A DNA stretch of 64,000 nt from the NCBI RefSeq assembly GCF_002979865.1, contig NZ_PCPZ01000003.1:248001-312000 (forward strand), in the 5' to 3' direction. The position numbers and the translations under genes were made by a program. The notes below the pieces were generated by a model. That model did no database searches. It saw only the letters and a list, made by a program, of their open reading frames with translations, and was not told the DNA's origin. Below, in pieces: positions 1 to 18,631 of the stretch. The stretch is from Arthrobacter sp. MYb214. Its GTDB lineage: Bacteria; Actinomycetota; Actinomycetes; Actinomycetales; Micrococcaceae. Numbering within the stretch: position 1 is the stretch's first letter; each line of letters starts with the position of its first letter.

Positions 1-158
1 GGCTCCAGCTTGGTATTAGTGCGCGAGACAGCCGGTGAGCAGGCTCACCGACCCAGTTCACCCTTCGTTTGCCTCATATCCACCCTTGGGGCACGCGCCC
101 CGGGCATCCTCAAGGTACCCGCCTTTTGCAGGCGACACCTCGCACAGGAGAACGCACT

Positions 159-1212
159 ATGAACAACAAGCCCCTCTCGGCCGCACTTGCCGCCGCTGTA
201 TTGATCCCGTTGGTCTTGGCGCCGGCAGCCAGCGCCGCTGCTCTGCCAGGAACCGCTGCTTCCGCGCTTCCAGCGGTAACGGCCTAGTCCCCAGAACCGG
301 GTTTCCGCGTACTGCCCTACCTCCAAGCTCCTGCTGCCACGTCGATGACCATCAACTGGATCAGCGAAACCGATGAGCCGGGCACGATAAGCCTCTCGGG
401 ACCGGGACTGGGAAAGTCCGGGAAGCAGAGCAGCGCACCACAGTACCTGGATCTCATGGAATACACCCGGGCCGAACTTGATCAGCAGATCGAGGGCTTG
501 GAACAGGGCTCGTGGTTGAAGTCGAATTCGAACTACAAGCACTCGGTGACCCTCCAGGGCCTGCTGCCCGGAAAGTCCTACAACTACACCGTGACCCAAT
601 CAGGAGAAACCCACAGCGCGGCTTTCAAAACAGCTCCCAAGGGCGGGGCGTGGAAAAACGTGCGCATCATTGCGTTCTCAGATTCTGAAACCGAACCACG
701 CGGACGCACCGAACACCGCGAGTGGGAGCTCTCCCCGGTCAACGGCTACACCGCAGATTCCATCCAGCGTCCGGGCGCGGGGTCCAAATGGGACCAGCAG
801 TTCGGCATGACCACCCGCAACGGCGAACCGACCCTGCGCTACCCGCTGGACCAGTCCACCGCATTCAACGAGAACCTCAAGCACATCGAAGCTGCCGATC
901 CGGACCTGGTCATGATGGCAGGCGATCTCACCCAGGGTTCGGGATACCAGCCGGCGTGGGATGAGTTCTTCGGCCATGTGGCCGGCGAGCATTCGGACTT
1001 GGCCTCCAGCGTTCCGCTGCTTCCAGCTTTGGGCAATTGGGAAACCTATGCGGCGCTGAACGGCGGCTACGGCACGGAAACCGACCTTGACCCCGGTTCA
1101 CATTTTCCCCCAGCAGGATTCGGAATACCAGTTGGAAAAGACCGAGCGACGCGCCTATGACGACGTCGTGAGCTTCGCGGTAGGCAAGGATGGCGTGCCG
1201 CTGGCGAAGTAG
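159..1212 (+). pseudogene. Broken purple acid phosphatase-like metallophosphoesterase
   Basis: An intact 5' end starts at ATG 159 with a good ribosome site (AGGAG) and encodes an export signal (MNNKPLSAALAAAVL... ending ASAA). A TAG at 285-287 interrupts the frame, but coding continues in the same frame through a fibronectin-like region (NWISETDEPG), the phosphoesterase motif FSDSETEPRGR, a GDL motif (MMAGDLTQG) and a GNxE motif (LGNWETY). Near 1105 the frame is lost: a plausible C-terminal tail (QQDSEYQLEKTERR...) resumes in another frame and ends at TAG 1212. The later His-containing motifs of the family are absent, so a middle section seems to be deleted as well. At about 350 codons the gene is well short of what the family needs for a full catalytic domain. 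The domain assignment is firm; the order of the lesions is inferred. Confidence 0.75.
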
Positions 1213-13920: not shown

Positions 13921-14526
13921 ATGGCCAGGCCTTCCAAGCCGAAGCTCAGCACCGCCGCGATCGCCGATGCCGCACTCAAGCTCGTCGACGCCCATGGCGA
14001 GTTCACGCTTCCGCAATTGGCCAAGGCCCTCTCGGTCTCCGCTTCGTCCCTGTACAACCACGTGTCCGGCAAGGATGAGATCATCGAGCTAATGAGAGGC
14101 CGGGCCATGTCGGCGATCAGCCTGCCAGATAGCGTTTCCAGCGACTGGCAGGAGATCGTACAGCAAATTGCCACGTCCTACTGGGAGTCGTATTCAAGGC
14201 ACCCACGGCTGATCCCGCTGCTCACCAGCCACACAGTCCGCGACAGCACCACGCTGCGCGTCTACGATGCACTGGCCGAGGCCTTCGCTATGGCCGGGTT
14301 CGAACCGAAGCGGCGGCTGCAGGCCATCACGATCGTCGACTCCTTTGTGCTCGGATCCGCCTTGGATGCGGCGGCACCTGAGAATGTATGGGAAATCGAC
14401 GGAGAGTCGACACGCGCTTTCAGCGAGACACTGGCCACTGCCCTGGGCGACGAGGACCGGGCGTCAAAGACCTTTGCGGTGGGCCTTGATCTGATTATCA
14501 ATGGTCTATATTCGCTGCCAGGCTAG
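13921..14526 (+). CDS. TetR-family regulator, probable repressor of aguBA
   Basis: A 201-residue protein with an N-terminal helix-turn-helix: STAAIADAALKLVDAHGEFTLPQLAKALSVSASSLYNHVSGKDEIIELMRG is the TetR DNA-binding domain with its SLYNHV recognition region. The rest is an all-helical ligand domain resembling TetR_C-type domains (YSRHPRLIPLLTSHTV). The ORF could start at 13864, but that would lie inside an operator; ATG 13921 has GGGAG seven bases before it. The gene diverges from aguB across a region with two copies of the same palindrome. The stop codon shares CTAG with the stop of the convergent SipW-fusion gene. The ligand may be agmatine or a product, which is inference. Confidence 0.88.
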   Translation: MARPSKPKLSTAAIADAALKLVDAHGEFTLPQLAKALSVSASSLYNHVSGKDEIIELMRGRAMSAISLPDSVSSDWQEIVQQIATSYWESYSRHPRLIPLLTSHTVRDSTTLRVYDALAEAFAMAGFEPKRRLQAITIVDSFVLGSALDAAAPENVWEIDGESTRAFSETLATALGDEDRASKTFAVGLDLIINGLYSLPG

Positions 14527-15653
14527 TGCGGTTGGCAGGTTAAACGCTTGTTGCTGCCCAGAAGTCCAGCGCTGCCATGAATTTGAGTAAAGCTCACCGG
14601 GGCTGAACTCCATGATCCGTAATTCGCCCTGATCGCCACCGTGAATTTTCTGTCGAAGCCTACGAGCAAATCCAGCAGGGCACCCAGTAGACCCTGGCTC
14701 GAAGACAGGGATGTCGTGTAGCTTCGCGTGTTGCCAGCAAGCGACTCTGTCTTTACCGTCGAGCTGCCATTGAGTTGTCCGGTGATGGTATAGGACGTTG
14801 GTTCTGGTCCGGAAACTGACCAATCGAATCGGATGGTTTGCTGGTCCCCGACATTGCCTGTGCATTTAGCGTTGGCTGGGGGCAGAGCCGTGAGCGCAGT
14901 AGCCGTGGCGGAAGCCGCCGCTTGGCTGGAGAAAGCTGCCTGGGTTTGTTCGATTTGAATCGGCAAAAGGCACAACGTGAGCATTGAAAACATGCCAGCC
15001 ATCTGAATCAGGGTCCGTCGCCGAGATCGTTGCGACATGGATTCCCGACTAGCTCCGGATACCCGAAATTCAGTGGCTTGATGCTCGCGACCAGCAAAAG
15101 GGCCTGGGTCCATTTCGGCCTCATTCATGCCCTGCCCGGATGAAAGTCGGCCGCTTCCACCATCCCTCTTGATGAACGCGACATAGAGCAGGTAGGCGCA
15201 CAGCAGTCCGCCGAGAAAATAGGCCCATGGCTGGGACAGCCACGATACGACGTAGCCCAGGACCGGTACACTGGCCAGCAGTTTGTCGACGCTGTCCACC
15301 GCATACGGTTGCAGGTCCGCGACGGGATTGGCATCACCCTTGAGGACCAGCCCCGCGTCCGTCTTTTCGACAACCCGGTGCGTCACCCGCACTTCGTCAC
15401 TGATCACCACCGAAACCACGTCGCCCACGGCGACGTCCTCTACCGCGGTCGGAACAGCCAGCCCCAGGGAACCGGTGGGGATGCCCGGTCCCATTGATCC
15501 CGAGGCGAAAACCAGGGGCTTGATCCCGAAAGCCAACGCCAGCACCGCCATGACCAGGCACAGGGTCCCGGCCGCGGCGCAGGCGTTCAGCACGAGGCGC
15601 TGGAACAGCGTCAGCGAAGATCCTGTGCGGGGTCCAGTTCGATTCAACTTCAT
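14523..15653 (-). CDS. SipW-type signal peptidase fused to a secreted, SipW-substrate-like domain
   Basis: Residues 1-165 are a signal peptidase of the SipW/archaeal type: a membrane helix at about 20-45, catalytic Ser53 in SGSMGPG, His92 in VTHRV and the box LVLKGDANP, then a second helix at about 135-160. Unusually the protein goes on for another 210 residues. After a polar linker, residues 206-240 look like a fresh signal peptide (MSQRSRRRT, a hydrophobic stretch, then QAAFSSQAA, the AxF(S/T) pattern of SipW substrates), followed by a Ser/Thr-rich extracellular domain that may have a fibronectin-like fold. The gene begins one base after the stop of the preceding gene. An internal start at 15038 (MSQRSRRRT) after GGGA is possible. 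Its stop overlaps the stop of the TetR gene in CTAG. Confidence 0.8.
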   Translation of the reverse strand: MKLNRTGPRTGSSLTLFQRLVLNACAAAGTLCLVMAVLALAFGIKPLVFASGSMGPGIPTGSLGLAVPTAVEDVAVGDVVSVVISDEVRVTHRVVEKTDAGLVLKGDANPVADLQPYAVDSVDKLLASVPVLGYVVSWLSQPWAYFLGGLLCAYLLYVAFIKRDGGSGRLSSGQGMNEAEMDPGPFAGREHQATEFRVSGASRESMSQRSRRRTLIQMAGMFSMLTLCLLPIQIEQTQAAFSSQAAASATATALTALPPANAKCTGNVGDQQTIRFDWSVSGPEPTSYTITGQLNGSSTVKTESLAGNTRSYTTSLSSSQGLLGALLDLLVGFDRKFTVAIRANYGSWSSAPVSFTQIHGSAGLLGSNKRLTCQPH

Positions 15654-15654
15654 C

Positions 15655-16230
15655 TCATGAACCCACCGTCGAGGTGAAGTCCAGGGTGATTGCCGTCGTG
15701 GCGCCCTGCAGGGTATTGGCCGCGGTTACTGGCAGCGAGTACTGCACGCACAGGGTTTCGCTGCTGCCGGCGGCCAAGGGCCTGGCGGCCGAGGCACTGC
15801 CGAACTGGGATCCAGCGTTCTTCGACAGCAGCGTGGTTCCGCCCGAGCAAGTAACGCTGGAGCCGGTGCCGCTGACCGTGGCGCCTGTTTTTACAACGAT
15901 ATTGAGTGCCGCCCCCAGCGCAGCGTTGCCCGATTCGGTGATTCTTCCGCCGAAAACATAGGGCGCCGAGATGGAACCGGTGTTCTTCACTGTCACGACG
16001 GATGCCGATGTCGAGCCCGGAAACAGGTTATTGCCGCTGATGGGCATCTGGTAGCTGGCCGAGGTTGCGCTGGTCGCAGTAGCTCCAACTCCCAGGGCAA
16101 CGGTGGCCGTGCTGACGTTCGAGGTAGCTGTCGCTTGTCCGGTCCATGAGGCCAGCGTCGAGACGGTGCCGAATCCTACGAGGACGCCCAAGGACAGAAT
16201 TGCCTTGATGCGCATTGAACGGTCGCTCAT
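15655..16230 (-). CDS. Small secreted protein with SipW-type signal (TasA/camelysin-like class)
   Basis: Residues 1-35 form an export signal with the SipW-type cleavage context: AILSLGVLVGFGTVSTLASW followed by TGQATATSNVSTATVAL. The mature part (about 155 residues) is rich in Ser, Thr, Ala and Gly with few charges (VVTVKNTGSISAPYVFGG, TLCVQYSLPVTAANTLQGA), a make-up like that of secreted beta-sandwich proteins such as TasA/camelysin relatives, and has two Cys (SVTCSGG, ETLCVQY) that may form a disulfide. It overlaps the preceding gene by four bases (ATGA) and lies one base from the SipW-fusion gene. Likely processed by one of the two signal peptidases of this operon. A structural role at the cell surface is inference. 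Confidence 0.78.
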   Translation of the reverse strand: MSDRSMRIKAILSLGVLVGFGTVSTLASWTGQATATSNVSTATVALGVGATATSATSASYQMPISGNNLFPGSTSASVVTVKNTGSISAPYVFGGRITESGNAALGAALNIVVKTGATVSGTGSSVTCSGGTTLLSKNAGSQFGSASAARPLAAGSSETLCVQYSLPVTAANTLQGATTAITLDFTSTVGS

Positions 16231-16913
16231 TCTTCCACTCCGTCCGTTTCAAGTTCCTTTTGTTTCCTTCGTTGCGCAGCAAGCAACGATAATCCCCCGA
16301 TACCCGCGATGCCTGCCGCCGCAAGCAGCGCCGCACCGCGGAACCCGGTATCTCCGAGCCCATCATGCCGCTCGGGAGGATCCGATTGGGGCAGCTCTTC
16401 CCTCGGCGCATCACTGTCGGGCGAATACCCTTCGTCAGGCGGCCGCGAAGAATCCGGAGCTTGCCCATCTCCGCCTGCTAATTCGACGGCGTCGATGCGC
16501 ACCTGCAACGAAGGCACCTGCTGGTCCTCCGACTCATTTTTCGCCGACCAGGGCAGTCCGACCCTCAGTCCGAATTCCGCGGCTTTGTCCGGTTCCAACC
16601 GGACTACCGTGGCTCCGGCTGTTTCGAAATAGATCCTGGTTGACGCAGCGGGCTCGATCGTCCGGATGCGGACTTCGATATCCGACTCCCGGTCATTGCG
16701 AATCCACAAGGATCCTGTGGATTCAACGCCCGGCGCCAAGACCGGGGCTCCTCCAAATACCTGCGGTGGGGCATCGGAATAGACCCGGCCGTCCAAGCTG
16801 TAGCTTAGGCCCTGGTCAGTTTCCGCGGCTGATGCGGGCAGTGCCAGGCCGAGTGCCGCGCAGGGAATCACGGCCGTCATGGCCGCGCGGGCTGCAAGAA
16901 AACGGAGCTTCAT
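16227..16913 (-). CDS. Surface protein with signal peptide and LxxTG-like C-terminal anchor
   Basis: The 228-residue protein has a classical signal peptide (MKLRFLAARAAMTAVIPCAALGLALPASAA), a beta-rich domain of about 110 residues (GSLWIRNDRESDIEVRIRTIEP), a Pro/Asp/Ser-rich linker (DSSRPPDEGYSPDSDAPREELPQSDPP), then LGDTG, a hydrophobic segment (AALLAAAGIAGIGGLSLLAA) and the basic tail QRRKQKE. The end follows the layout of a sortase sorting signal, but with LGDTG in place of LPxTG. So it is either wall-anchored by a sortase that accepts LxxTG, or simply a membrane-tethered protein. Both ends overlap neighbours by ATGA. It is the only protein of the operon with an ordinary signal peptide. 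Confidence 0.78.
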   Translation of the reverse strand: MKLRFLAARAAMTAVIPCAALGLALPASAAETDQGLSYSLDGRVYSDAPPQVFGGAPVLAPGVESTGSLWIRNDRESDIEVRIRTIEPAASTRIYFETAGATVVRLEPDKAAEFGLRVGLPWSAKNESEDQQVPSLQVRIDAVELAGGDGQAPDSSRPPDEGYSPDSDAPREELPQSDPPERHDGLGDTGFRGAALLAAAGIAGIGGLSLLAAQRRKQKELETDGVEE

Positions 16914-17479
16914 CGATGCCCTTTCCCCTGCCGTTCACGCCATGCCCCGCCGAACATCACCAGCGAATACACGATCAATCCGCTCGTTGCGATCCAGGTC
17001 AGCCACGTTCTCTGCTGGAGTGACAGAGCGCTGTTCACGTATCCCAGGAGCGGGACGGAATACCAGAGCTTGCCCCGGATCTGTTCGGGTTGCACCGGCT
17101 CGTCATCGGCATTGTTTGCATCCCCGCGGAAAATGAATTGTTCTTCCCCGCCCAGGCTCGCGCCGATAGCGGAAACACGGTGCGTAACGACTTCAGGCTC
17201 ACCTGATTCCAGCTGGTAGGTGGCAACCTCGCCAATGCGAAGGTGCTGTGGGTCAATCGGCTTCACCACCACCAAAGTACCGGGCGGCAAATGCGGCCGC
17301 ATGGATCCGGTGAGCACGGTATACGCCGTCGCCCCGCCCAATTTCGGAACCACGATCATGACGGCAATCAGGGCAAGGACGATGAACAGCACGAGCCAGG
17401 AAAGCACCTGACCGCACCACCACCGGATCCCTGTGCGTTCCTGCTGTTCCCTGCGCCGGACGCGATTCCCAATTGTCAT
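16910..17479 (-). CDS. Signal peptidase I, SipW/ER type
   Basis: A 189-residue membrane protease. Two helices flank the periplasm-facing (outer) catalytic part: LSWLVLFIVLALIAVMIVV at about 27-45 and a C-terminal helix (TWIATSGLIVYSLVMF). Ser59 in LTGSMRP and His100 in VVTHRVS form the Ser/His dyad typical of the SipW, archaeal and eukaryotic type, and the box IFRGDANNADD follows; there is no Lys general base like that of bacterial LepB. It overlaps the upstream gene by four bases (ATGA). The ORF extends further upstream but the coupled ATG at 17479 is preferred. Likely processes the three SipW-type proteins of the operon. Confidence 0.9.
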   Translation of the reverse strand: MTIGNRVRRREQQERTGIRWWCGQVLSWLVLFIVLALIAVMIVVPKLGGATAYTVLTGSMRPHLPPGTLVVVKPIDPQHLRIGEVATYQLESGEPEVVTHRVSAIGASLGGEEQFIFRGDANNADDEPVQPEQIRGKLWYSVPLLGYVNSALSLQQRTWLTWIATSGLIVYSLVMFGGAWRERQGKGHR

Positions 17480-18051
17480 CGTTGCTGCCCCGCGAACCCC
17501 AGCTTGAGCGCTACTTTCCCGCCGGAAGCCGTTTGAGGTGCCCCGGAGGGAACCGAAACACGAATGCACAAGGCCTCATTCGCCATCGCCGGCGCGGCGC
17601 GCAGCACCCTGGCAGCTGCGAAGGAGGCGGTGGATCCCAGCGGCCCGGCATACAGCCGTTCCCCGGCCAACGGCTGGTCGGCTTCGCAGGCCGCTTGGTC
17701 CATGCCGGAATAGATGCTCAGTTGCAAAACGCTGGACAGGGCACGATCAGCGGCAGTCGGCGAAGCGGTCGCATTGACCGCCCCATCCAGCTGATAGGTC
17801 AAGTCCACAGTGCCAGCATTGCTGATCACCAGTGATGCTTGCGTAAACGCCCCGGGGATCAGCTCGCTGCCGGACAGCTTCGCGAACTGGTGCTCGGTTT
17901 CGCCACCGGCCAGCAATGCCAGCGAACCGGTTTTCAAGGCTGGCGGATCCACCGTGCTTTCGGCGCGCCAAGTTGCGGCCGTGCCTTGCGCGCTGATACC
18001 CAGCAGCAAGAGCACAACCGCGACTATGGCGAACTTCAAGGGTTTGGGCAT
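17476..18051 (-). CDS. Secreted protein with SipW-type signal
   Basis: A 191-residue protein with N-terminal MPKPLKFAIVAVVLLLLGIS followed by AQGTAATWRAESTV, which fits the GTxAxW context of SipW-cognate signals. The mature part contains FTQASLVISNAGTVDLTYQLDGAVNATAS, a TasA/camelysin-like beta pattern, plus two Cys (AACEADQP and EALCIRVS) that may be bridged. It lies 25 bases downstream of the first gene of the operon and ends in an ATGA overlap with the signal peptidase gene. Shared layout with the proteins at 15655-16230 and 18077-18631 suggests they are related building blocks; the exact function is unknown. Confidence 0.78.
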   Translation of the reverse strand: MPKPLKFAIVAVVLLLLGISAQGTAATWRAESTVDPPALKTGSLALLAGGETEHQFAKLSGSELIPGAFTQASLVISNAGTVDLTYQLDGAVNATASPTAADRALSSVLQLSIYSGMDQAACEADQPLAGERLYAGPLGSTASFAAARVLRAAPAMANEALCIRVSVPSGAPQTASGGKVALKLGFAGQQR

Positions 18052-18076
18052 GCACCAGCCAATCCACGATCCATGA

Positions 18077-18631
18077 CTAAGCGCGGACTTGGTCCAAGGT
18101 CAGCGTCAGCGCTTCAAGATCCAGCGGCTGGTCGTAGGTCGACGGCGGGGTGTCCCCTACCGCTCCTTCGGCAAAGGTGACGGTGATCAGGAATGGAACT
18201 GAATAGGTGCCCGGATCGGCAAAGCTCAGTGTGCCGTCAGCTTCCTCCGTAATCCCCGGCGCCGATGCGTCGACCTGCAGAGCGACGGTCACGTATCCTT
18301 CCAACGCTCCCAGCGCCGTAGCCGCCTGGTCGACGCTCAGGGATCCAGCAATGTTCTTGCCTTCGGCATCGATGGTGGCGGTCTGGCTGAACGCAACGAC
18401 GTCGCCGGGAACGAGCTGCTGGGTTGCCGGGTCGAACGGCTCGGGCGCTTCCGGATTGCTGATGTCCTGCCAGTTGCCCTCCCCGTTGGTCGTCAAGTTC
18501 AGGTGGCCGGTTTCCACGGTGCCCGCGTCAATAGTCTGCTGCGCCTGCCAGCGCGCGATCGTTCCAGCGCCGCCGAGCAACAGCGCTCCGGCTGCAACAG
18601 CAGCAATGGTTGCCTTGGTTACTTTCTTCAT
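18077..18631 (-). CDS. Alternate-type signal peptide secreted protein, first gene of the SipW operon
   Basis: A 184-residue protein. MKKVTKATIAAVAAGALLLGGAGTIARWQAQQTIDAGTV is the alternate signal seen on actinobacterial SipW substrates (GxGTxAxW). The mature part begins with SGHLNLT-like spacing (ETGHLNLTTNGEGNWQDIS) and has the pattern LVPGDVVAFSQTATIDAEGKNIAGSL, found in this secreted family where LxPGD precedes a beta-strand. No Cys. A GAGGA lies 9-13 bases before ATG 18631. As the first gene of a six-gene coupled operon, and the one with the strongest ribosome site, it may be the major product, possibly a fibre-type subunit, which is inference from the Bacillus tapA-sipW-tasA parallel. 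Confidence 0.82.
   Translation of the reverse strand: MKKVTKATIAAVAAGALLLGGAGTIARWQAQQTIDAGTVETGHLNLTTNGEGNWQDISNPEAPEPFDPATQQLVPGDVVAFSQTATIDAEGKNIAGSLSVDQAATALGALEGYVTVALQVDASAPGITEEADGTLSFADPGTYSVPFLITVTFAEGAVGDTPPSTYDQPLDLEALTLTLDQVRA

Follow-up and report, generated by a model that had tools for sequence, protein, structure and literature searches.

A six-gene operon of Arthrobacter sp. MYb214 that resembles two joined Bacillus-type fibre-export systems

According to the accessible parts of the literature, Bacillus and archaea have fibres of the TasA type, and Clostridium has SipW-dependent polymers. Systems of the TasA/SipW kind are thus already known, and TIGR04088 and TIGR04089 are curated families. 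Here we describe an operon of six genes, named A to F, in Arthrobacter sp. MYb214 (assembly GCF_002979865.1, 3.72 Mb). It lies in a stretch of 64,000 nucleotides (contig NZ_PCPZ01000003.1, positions 248,001 to 312,000), which is referred to as the window and to which all coordinates refer unless another locus is named. An earlier note on this DNA had described the operon as one enlarged version of the Bacillus export set, with two peptidases, three secreted substrates and an anchored protein. Our analysis suggests that this six-gene set, which is conserved in Glutamicibacter, resembles two joined Bacillus-type fibre-export systems. Moreover, one of the two peptidases (F) is fused to a protein bearing the cutting signal that F should recognize.

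Two substrate and peptidase modules

Both C and F pass the curated model for SipW-type peptidases, TIGR02228 (86.3 and 59.7 bits, respectively; cut-off 51.85). Their catalytic boxes (Ser, His, and Asp) are TGSM from residue 57, THR from 99 and GDAN from 119 in C, and SGSM from 51, THR from 91 and GDAN from 106 in F, which bears out the two SipW-type Ser/His peptidases of the earlier note. On the Bacillus SipW model NF046067 (cut-off 190), both score below the cut-off (63.9 bits for C and 38.5 for F). A further weak TIGR02228 match in the same genome (24.8 bits, contig C1) was rejected as a third Ser/His peptidase, being LepB-like with a Ser-Lys pair when inspected by eye. At an E-value of 1e-6 the model finds matches in 110 of 147 genomes (this one included), 84 of them over the cut-off; the weaker matches include ordinary peptidases.

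To place C and F, 129 peptidase open reading frames (ORFs) were taken from 113 fetched regions (20 plus 93 new). A tree was built from 116 of them and the two window proteins; the other 13 scored under 60 bits or had a short match and were left out. The label of a peptidase was the substrate profile that scored best, with at least 25 bits, in the 1.5 kb upstream of it; for the two window rows the labels were assigned by hand. The C clade (54 rows; Shimodaira-Hasegawa approximate likelihood ratio test (SH-aLRT) 98) contained 35 A labels, 9 B labels, 10 unlabelled rows and no E label. The F clade (44 rows, SH-aLRT 97) contained 42 E labels, 2 unlabelled rows and neither A nor B. Wherever a C-clade peptidase was labelled, its best upstream substrate was therefore of the A/B type (44 of 44), and wherever an F-clade peptidase was labelled it was of the E type (42 of 42); for the labelled rows a single change between A/B and E suffices on the tree. 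A third, deep group (17 rows) lies outside both clades. A more careful tree of 80 rows, from which near-copies, rows without a label and some of the long or broken ones had been removed, placed 35 E rows in one clade (100/100) without A or B. The catalytic boxes were in order in all 44 F-clade rows and in 40 of the 44 A/B-labelled C-clade rows. The modules are also found apart in other genomes. One simple enlarged set, as first proposed, is rejected on this tree, which splits the operon into what look like two substrate/peptidase modules. By these sequence comparisons the peptidases and substrate families travel together; enzyme specificity is not thereby proven.

Among the exported proteins, A passes both TIGR04089 (131.1 bits, cut-off 60) and TIGR04088 (20.9 bits, cut-off 19). 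It is the sole TIGR04089 member among the window proteins, as B reaches 21.8 bits and E gives no match. A search of the whole genome with TIGR04088 (E-value up to 1) returned only three places, namely A (24.4 bits), over the cut-off, and B (13.7) and E (13.0), below it. In hhalign comparisons B matched E with 99.3% and the N-terminal part of A with 97.6%, A matched E with 86.7%, and the match between D and B (13%) was not credible. B is a relative of E, and its N-terminal part is also related to A. Trp occupies P2', the second position after the cleavage site, in 41 of 41 aligned A rows and 15 of 15 aligned B rows. Of the three signals described earlier as G-T-x-A-x-W, those of A and B have this form, and that of E is S-T-x-A-x-W instead.

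Window E belongs to no family in Pfam or NCBIfam, including the TasA/camelysin models PF12389 and NF046066, which match 10 (best 3.8e-13) and 2 of 53 aligned E rows, respectively, at E-values up to 0.1. Structure prediction covered E and F. The beta-sandwich that the earlier note had suggested looking for is predicted in E, from residue 46, with the TasA fibre as top PDB match. Subunits of donor-strand fibres (TasA, AbpA, Fim/Pap) make up much of the structure-match list; the E profile retrieves AbpX and TasA by sequence, and the E model resembles AbpA. PDB profile searches with A, B and D gave nothing credible, the best for D being a designed immunoglobulin (Ig)-like protein (0.0067).

D is probably a sortase-anchored member. 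The LxxTG-like tail attributed to it is present, as LGDTG is followed by a hydrophobic stretch and basic residues, and in some aligned relatives the tail motif is LPETG, LPDTG, LPITG or LPRTG. Elsewhere in the genome, on contig C14, there are two sortase genes (PF04203, over cut-off). D has no family above cut-off, and the LPXTG models score below theirs (12.1 bits against 15.9 for TIGR01167 and 12.6 against 20 for PF00746). D was rejected as a SipW substrate because its signal, read by eye as A-S-A↓A-E (the arrow marks the cleavage site), is of the ordinary Sec type and lacks an aromatic P2'.

The fusion protein F and other peptidase fusions

F had been taken for a plain second peptidase. It consists of a peptidase, an internal SipW-type site and a predicted FN3 domain (Table 1), and its site adds a fourth to the SipW-type signals listed earlier. 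Relatives encode the C-terminal part of F separately, as a small protein that has a SipW signal of its own and is found beside F-clade peptidases. All 14 of 14 F rows retain the motif T-x-A↓[AS]-[FM], which aligns with the N-terminal signals of these free homologues; P2' is Phe or Met in the F rows versus Trp in 17 free proteins. F is a fusion of a SipW-type peptidase with a SipW-type substrate. TIGR04088 matches 6 of 20 rows in an alignment of FN3-type small proteins, of which 19 are right and one was wrongly cut (a peptidase piece of L057). Weak FN3 matches from this alignment (fibronectin 6xax, E-value 0.0064) are a hint only, as the wrong row is included. In Glutamicibacter ardleyensis (L064:4256-5449, the same contig as L087) F is broken into a peptidase piece of 143 residues and an FN3 piece of 196, and genome G040 carries a partial second copy of the FN3-type protein after F (L071:3995-4549).

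Among the 129 ORFs, further SipW-type peptidases are fused to other exported parts. Ice-binding PF11999 domains are found in L174:5800-7161 (97.1 bits) and L178:4604-6025 (98.9 bits), where an internal hydrophobic segment with an A-F or G-F site precedes them. A laminin-G domain takes the same place in L172 (71.6 bits) and a Big_7 domain in L180 (25 bits, cut-off 24.1), and in L149, L189, L190 and L073 an exported part without a named domain follows the internal site. L149, L172 and L174 belong to the third group of the tree and L073 to the F clade; the rest are below the score limit of the tree. A pattern that combines a hydrophobic stretch with a following aromatic P2' occurs in seven of eight fusions to exported domains, in none of ten LPxTG fusions, in none of three DUF5305-like fusions and in one of ten other tails. 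These sets were picked by eye (L153 and the FN3 fusions being excluded), so the counts are a description and not a blind test. L174 (L-T-A↓A-F by eye) misses the pattern on its P3 residue, and the unrelated tail of L128 fits it.

F-clade peptidases with an LPxTG-tailed domain are found in L141, L143, L158, L159, L166, L167, L168, L170, L185 and L187. The D profile weakly matches six of these ten (12 to 32 bits), as would be expected if the fused part were D-like. L155, L163 and L173 encode SipW-like peptidases with a long C-terminal part; L155, the one scanned, matches DUF5305 (38.2 bits).

Operon layout and conservation

Gene calling exactly reproduced the six genes of the earlier note, with their coordinates, minus strand, order A-B-C-D-E-F and gaps of 25, -4, -4, -4 and 1 bases (Table 1). 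The start of C is an internal ATG that overlaps the stop codon of B, inside a longer ORF opening with GTG at 17569. A glutaminase gene lies upstream of the operon, and a convergent TetR-type gene shares four bases with F at the stop codons (window 14523-14526). No RNA element was found near the operon at gathering scores. Scans for promoters (2 sites versus 0.9 expected) and terminators (5 versus 4.5) were uninformative.

Table 1. Genes of the operon (window coordinates) and parts of F
Feature	Position	Strand	Description
A	18077-18631	-	184 residues; SipW-dependent exported protein, TIGR04089 type; signal G-T-I-A↓R-W
B	17476-18051	-	191 residues; exported protein; signal G-T-A-A↓T-W
C	16910-17479	-	189 residues; Ser/His signal peptidase, A/B-linked clade; two hydrophobic segments (hydropathy)
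D	16227-16913	-	228 residues; ordinary Sec signal, extracellular domain, Pro-rich spacer, LGDTG tail
E	15655-16230	-	191 residues; candidate TasA-like fibre subunit; signal S-T-L-A↓S-W
F	14523-15653	-	376 residues; peptidase-substrate fusion
F, C-terminal part (residues 206-376)	14523-15038	-	homologous to free-standing small SipW-type proteins (profile matches and alignment)
F, peptidase	residues about 14-160		Ser/His signal peptidase
F, linker	residues about 161-206		probably cytoplasmic
F, third membrane helix	residues 207-228		
F, internal site	residues 237-241		SipW-type site TQA↓AF
F, FN3-like domain	residues about 255-375		predicted fold

The six-gene order is kept in 12 of 17 other same-genus genomes (with F broken in one of them, L064), and chance or mis-called genes were rejected for this reason. 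The full order is also found in G040 and G042, which represent two other genera of the same family, so the conservation among relatives that the earlier note proposed to look for does exist. Genome G132, from another family, has A-C-D-E-F. Among the same-genus genomes G013 has no B, G007 carries only a set of E-E-peptidase-FN3, and no peptidase match at an E-value of 1e-6 was found in G006, G009 and G011. Among 16 named loci, the six-gene order occurs in nine Glutamicibacter/Arthrobacter records (L082-L090; F is split in L087), most of which are the same contigs as among the same-genus genomes. Dietzia has A-B-C-E-F, the peptidase-FN3 fusion being absent, and a Marmoricola metagenome-assembled genome and Nocardioides have A-C-D-E-F, with a weak match to the FN3 part (21 bits) in the F of Nocardioides. 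In the phylum sample, TIGR04089 (E-value 1e-6) matched 1 of 198 genomes, the present one, and the E profile (1e-5) matched 19 of 198, the present one included; the system is therefore patchy in this sample. A record named Sporosarcina beigongshangi, which we take to be a Bacillota name, holds a complete six-gene operon (L091:3990-8056), by contamination or transfer.

Proposed assembly and comparison with described systems

From the computed gene order, peptidase family, signals, two-module split, fusion and predicted folds of E and F, we infer a TasA-type surface filament system that is made and exported by this operon and consists of two SipW modules working together; we regard this as fairly likely. 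In the first module (A, B, and C), peptidase C would remove the T-x-A↓x-W signals from A and B. In the second (D, E, and F), the F peptidase would remove the signal of E and also cut TQA↓AF ahead of its own FN3 domain. The N-terminal segment exposed by cleavage would, as in TasA, serve as donor strand and complete the beta-sandwich of the following subunit. B. subtilis TasA has Phe at P2', and F29 lies within its donor strand in the available part of the published account, so the donor strand begins at the cleavage site. E would polymerize by donor-strand exchange, and perhaps B and A would too. The FN3 domain of F would arise next to the enzyme at the membrane, expose the same kind of N-terminus and most likely start or cap the filament, a TapA-like role. 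D would be exported by an ordinary peptidase, linked to the wall by sortase and tie the filament to the cell. Donor-strand assembly, a start by F and an anchor in D are proposed because the anatomy is TasA-like, with a starter-like part fused to a peptidase. The TasA-like SipW system with an anchored member that the earlier note described stands on the E fold and the conserved order, and it might form a wall-attached fibre or coat that serves in surface attachment or biofilm; that description was incomplete as to the two modules, the F fusion and the ordinary signal of D.

Several findings weigh against the filament proposal. Eight of 50 E labels fall in the third group, outside the C and F clades, and six third-group E rows lie outside the E clade of the 80-row tree, so that two changes are needed there. 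Some C-clade peptidases also have a weaker E-like gene (up to 44 bits) next to them in the position of B, and the substrate labels record the best match only. The best-match labels and the E labels outside both clades lowered our confidence to the level given. As for F, TIGR04088 does not call the internal site, and the predicted local distance difference test (pLDDT) score is under 50 at residues 242-252, so the model does not support a site held at the active centre. Together with the Phe or Met at P2' in place of Trp, these two points would suit an internal hydrophobic segment that stays uncleaved as a permanent anchor and displays FN3 on the membrane, for example to hold substrates. The invariant motif in the F rows, its alignment with the signals of free homologues and the Phe at P2' of B. 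subtilis TasA speak against such an anchor, which we consider possible but doubtful. We also entertain, tentatively, that F cleaves its own TQA↓AF (in cis, or F on F) and hands an FN3 starter with a donor-strand N-terminus to the emerging E. If so, F would serve as a platform in the membrane at which removal of the signal and initiation of the filament are coupled, and the ice-binding, laminin-G and Big_7 fusions would be further peptidases carrying their own substrate.

It is also conceivable that the exported proteins build a flat coat, or serve as separate adhesins, without donor-strand polymerization, with SipW signals merely routing them to dedicated peptidases. This appears unlikely in view of the donor-strand subunits in the E structure-match list, the retrieval of AbpX and TasA by the E profile and the strong conservation of the residue two places after the cleavage site. 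Since PF12389 is labelled as a camelysin metallo-endopeptidase and matches some aligned E rows, E and its kin could instead be secreted proteases and the operon an exporter of enzymes. However, window E has no PF12389 match, and the camelysin name also covers the filament builders TasA and CalY in the parts of the reports available (PMC10151520, PMC13082335); this reading is very improbable.

The operon unites two peptidases with two substrate families within a single strain, which offers a clean genetic test of SipW substrate specificity and makes it testable whether a filament starter can be carried by the peptidase itself. The SipW-type site kept in FN3-fused F-clade peptidases and absent in LPxTG-tailed fusions is a natural contrast that provides sites to compare. 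A literature search, which covered open-licence papers with subscription papers and preprints mostly outside it, found no SipW/TasA system in Actinomycetota and no tested function for the TIGR04089 family, of which A alone is a full member. Within that literature, three features appear to be new: the two-clade, two-peptidase operon, the keeping of its own substrate family by each peptidase clade, and the fusion of peptidase and substrate, in which an internal SipW-type site is conserved.

The archaeal bundling pili AbpA/AbpX are matched by E, AbpX by its profile and AbpA by its model; those pili are archaeal, and we know of no peptidase fusion in them. In C. perfringens sipW-bsaABCRSD, a SipW-dependent polymer-forming protein likewise shares an operon with its peptidase; unlike here, that operon has one peptidase, and BsaA polymerizes without need for the neighbouring sortase gene, according to the accessible part of the report (PMC7395162). 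The B. cereus sipW-tasA/calY system with CapP is similar in having two camelysins and one accessory protein processed by SipW, but it has one SipW, is sortase-independent and no fusion is mentioned in the parts of the reports available (PMC13082335, PMC10151520). B. subtilis tapA-sipW-tasA, in the available text of its descriptions, also has a SipW-type peptidase beside substrates with aromatic P2' (PMC9674648, PMC10151520), and the predicted fold of E resembles that of TasA. TapA is a V-set Ig protein in the part of the report available (PMC10151520) and the accessory domain of F is FN3-like by predicted fold, so the likeness is one of role only. The present operon differs from that of B. subtilis in its two peptidases, which belong to two clades, in its two substrate families and LPxTG-type member, and in the fusion of the accessory domain to the peptidase.
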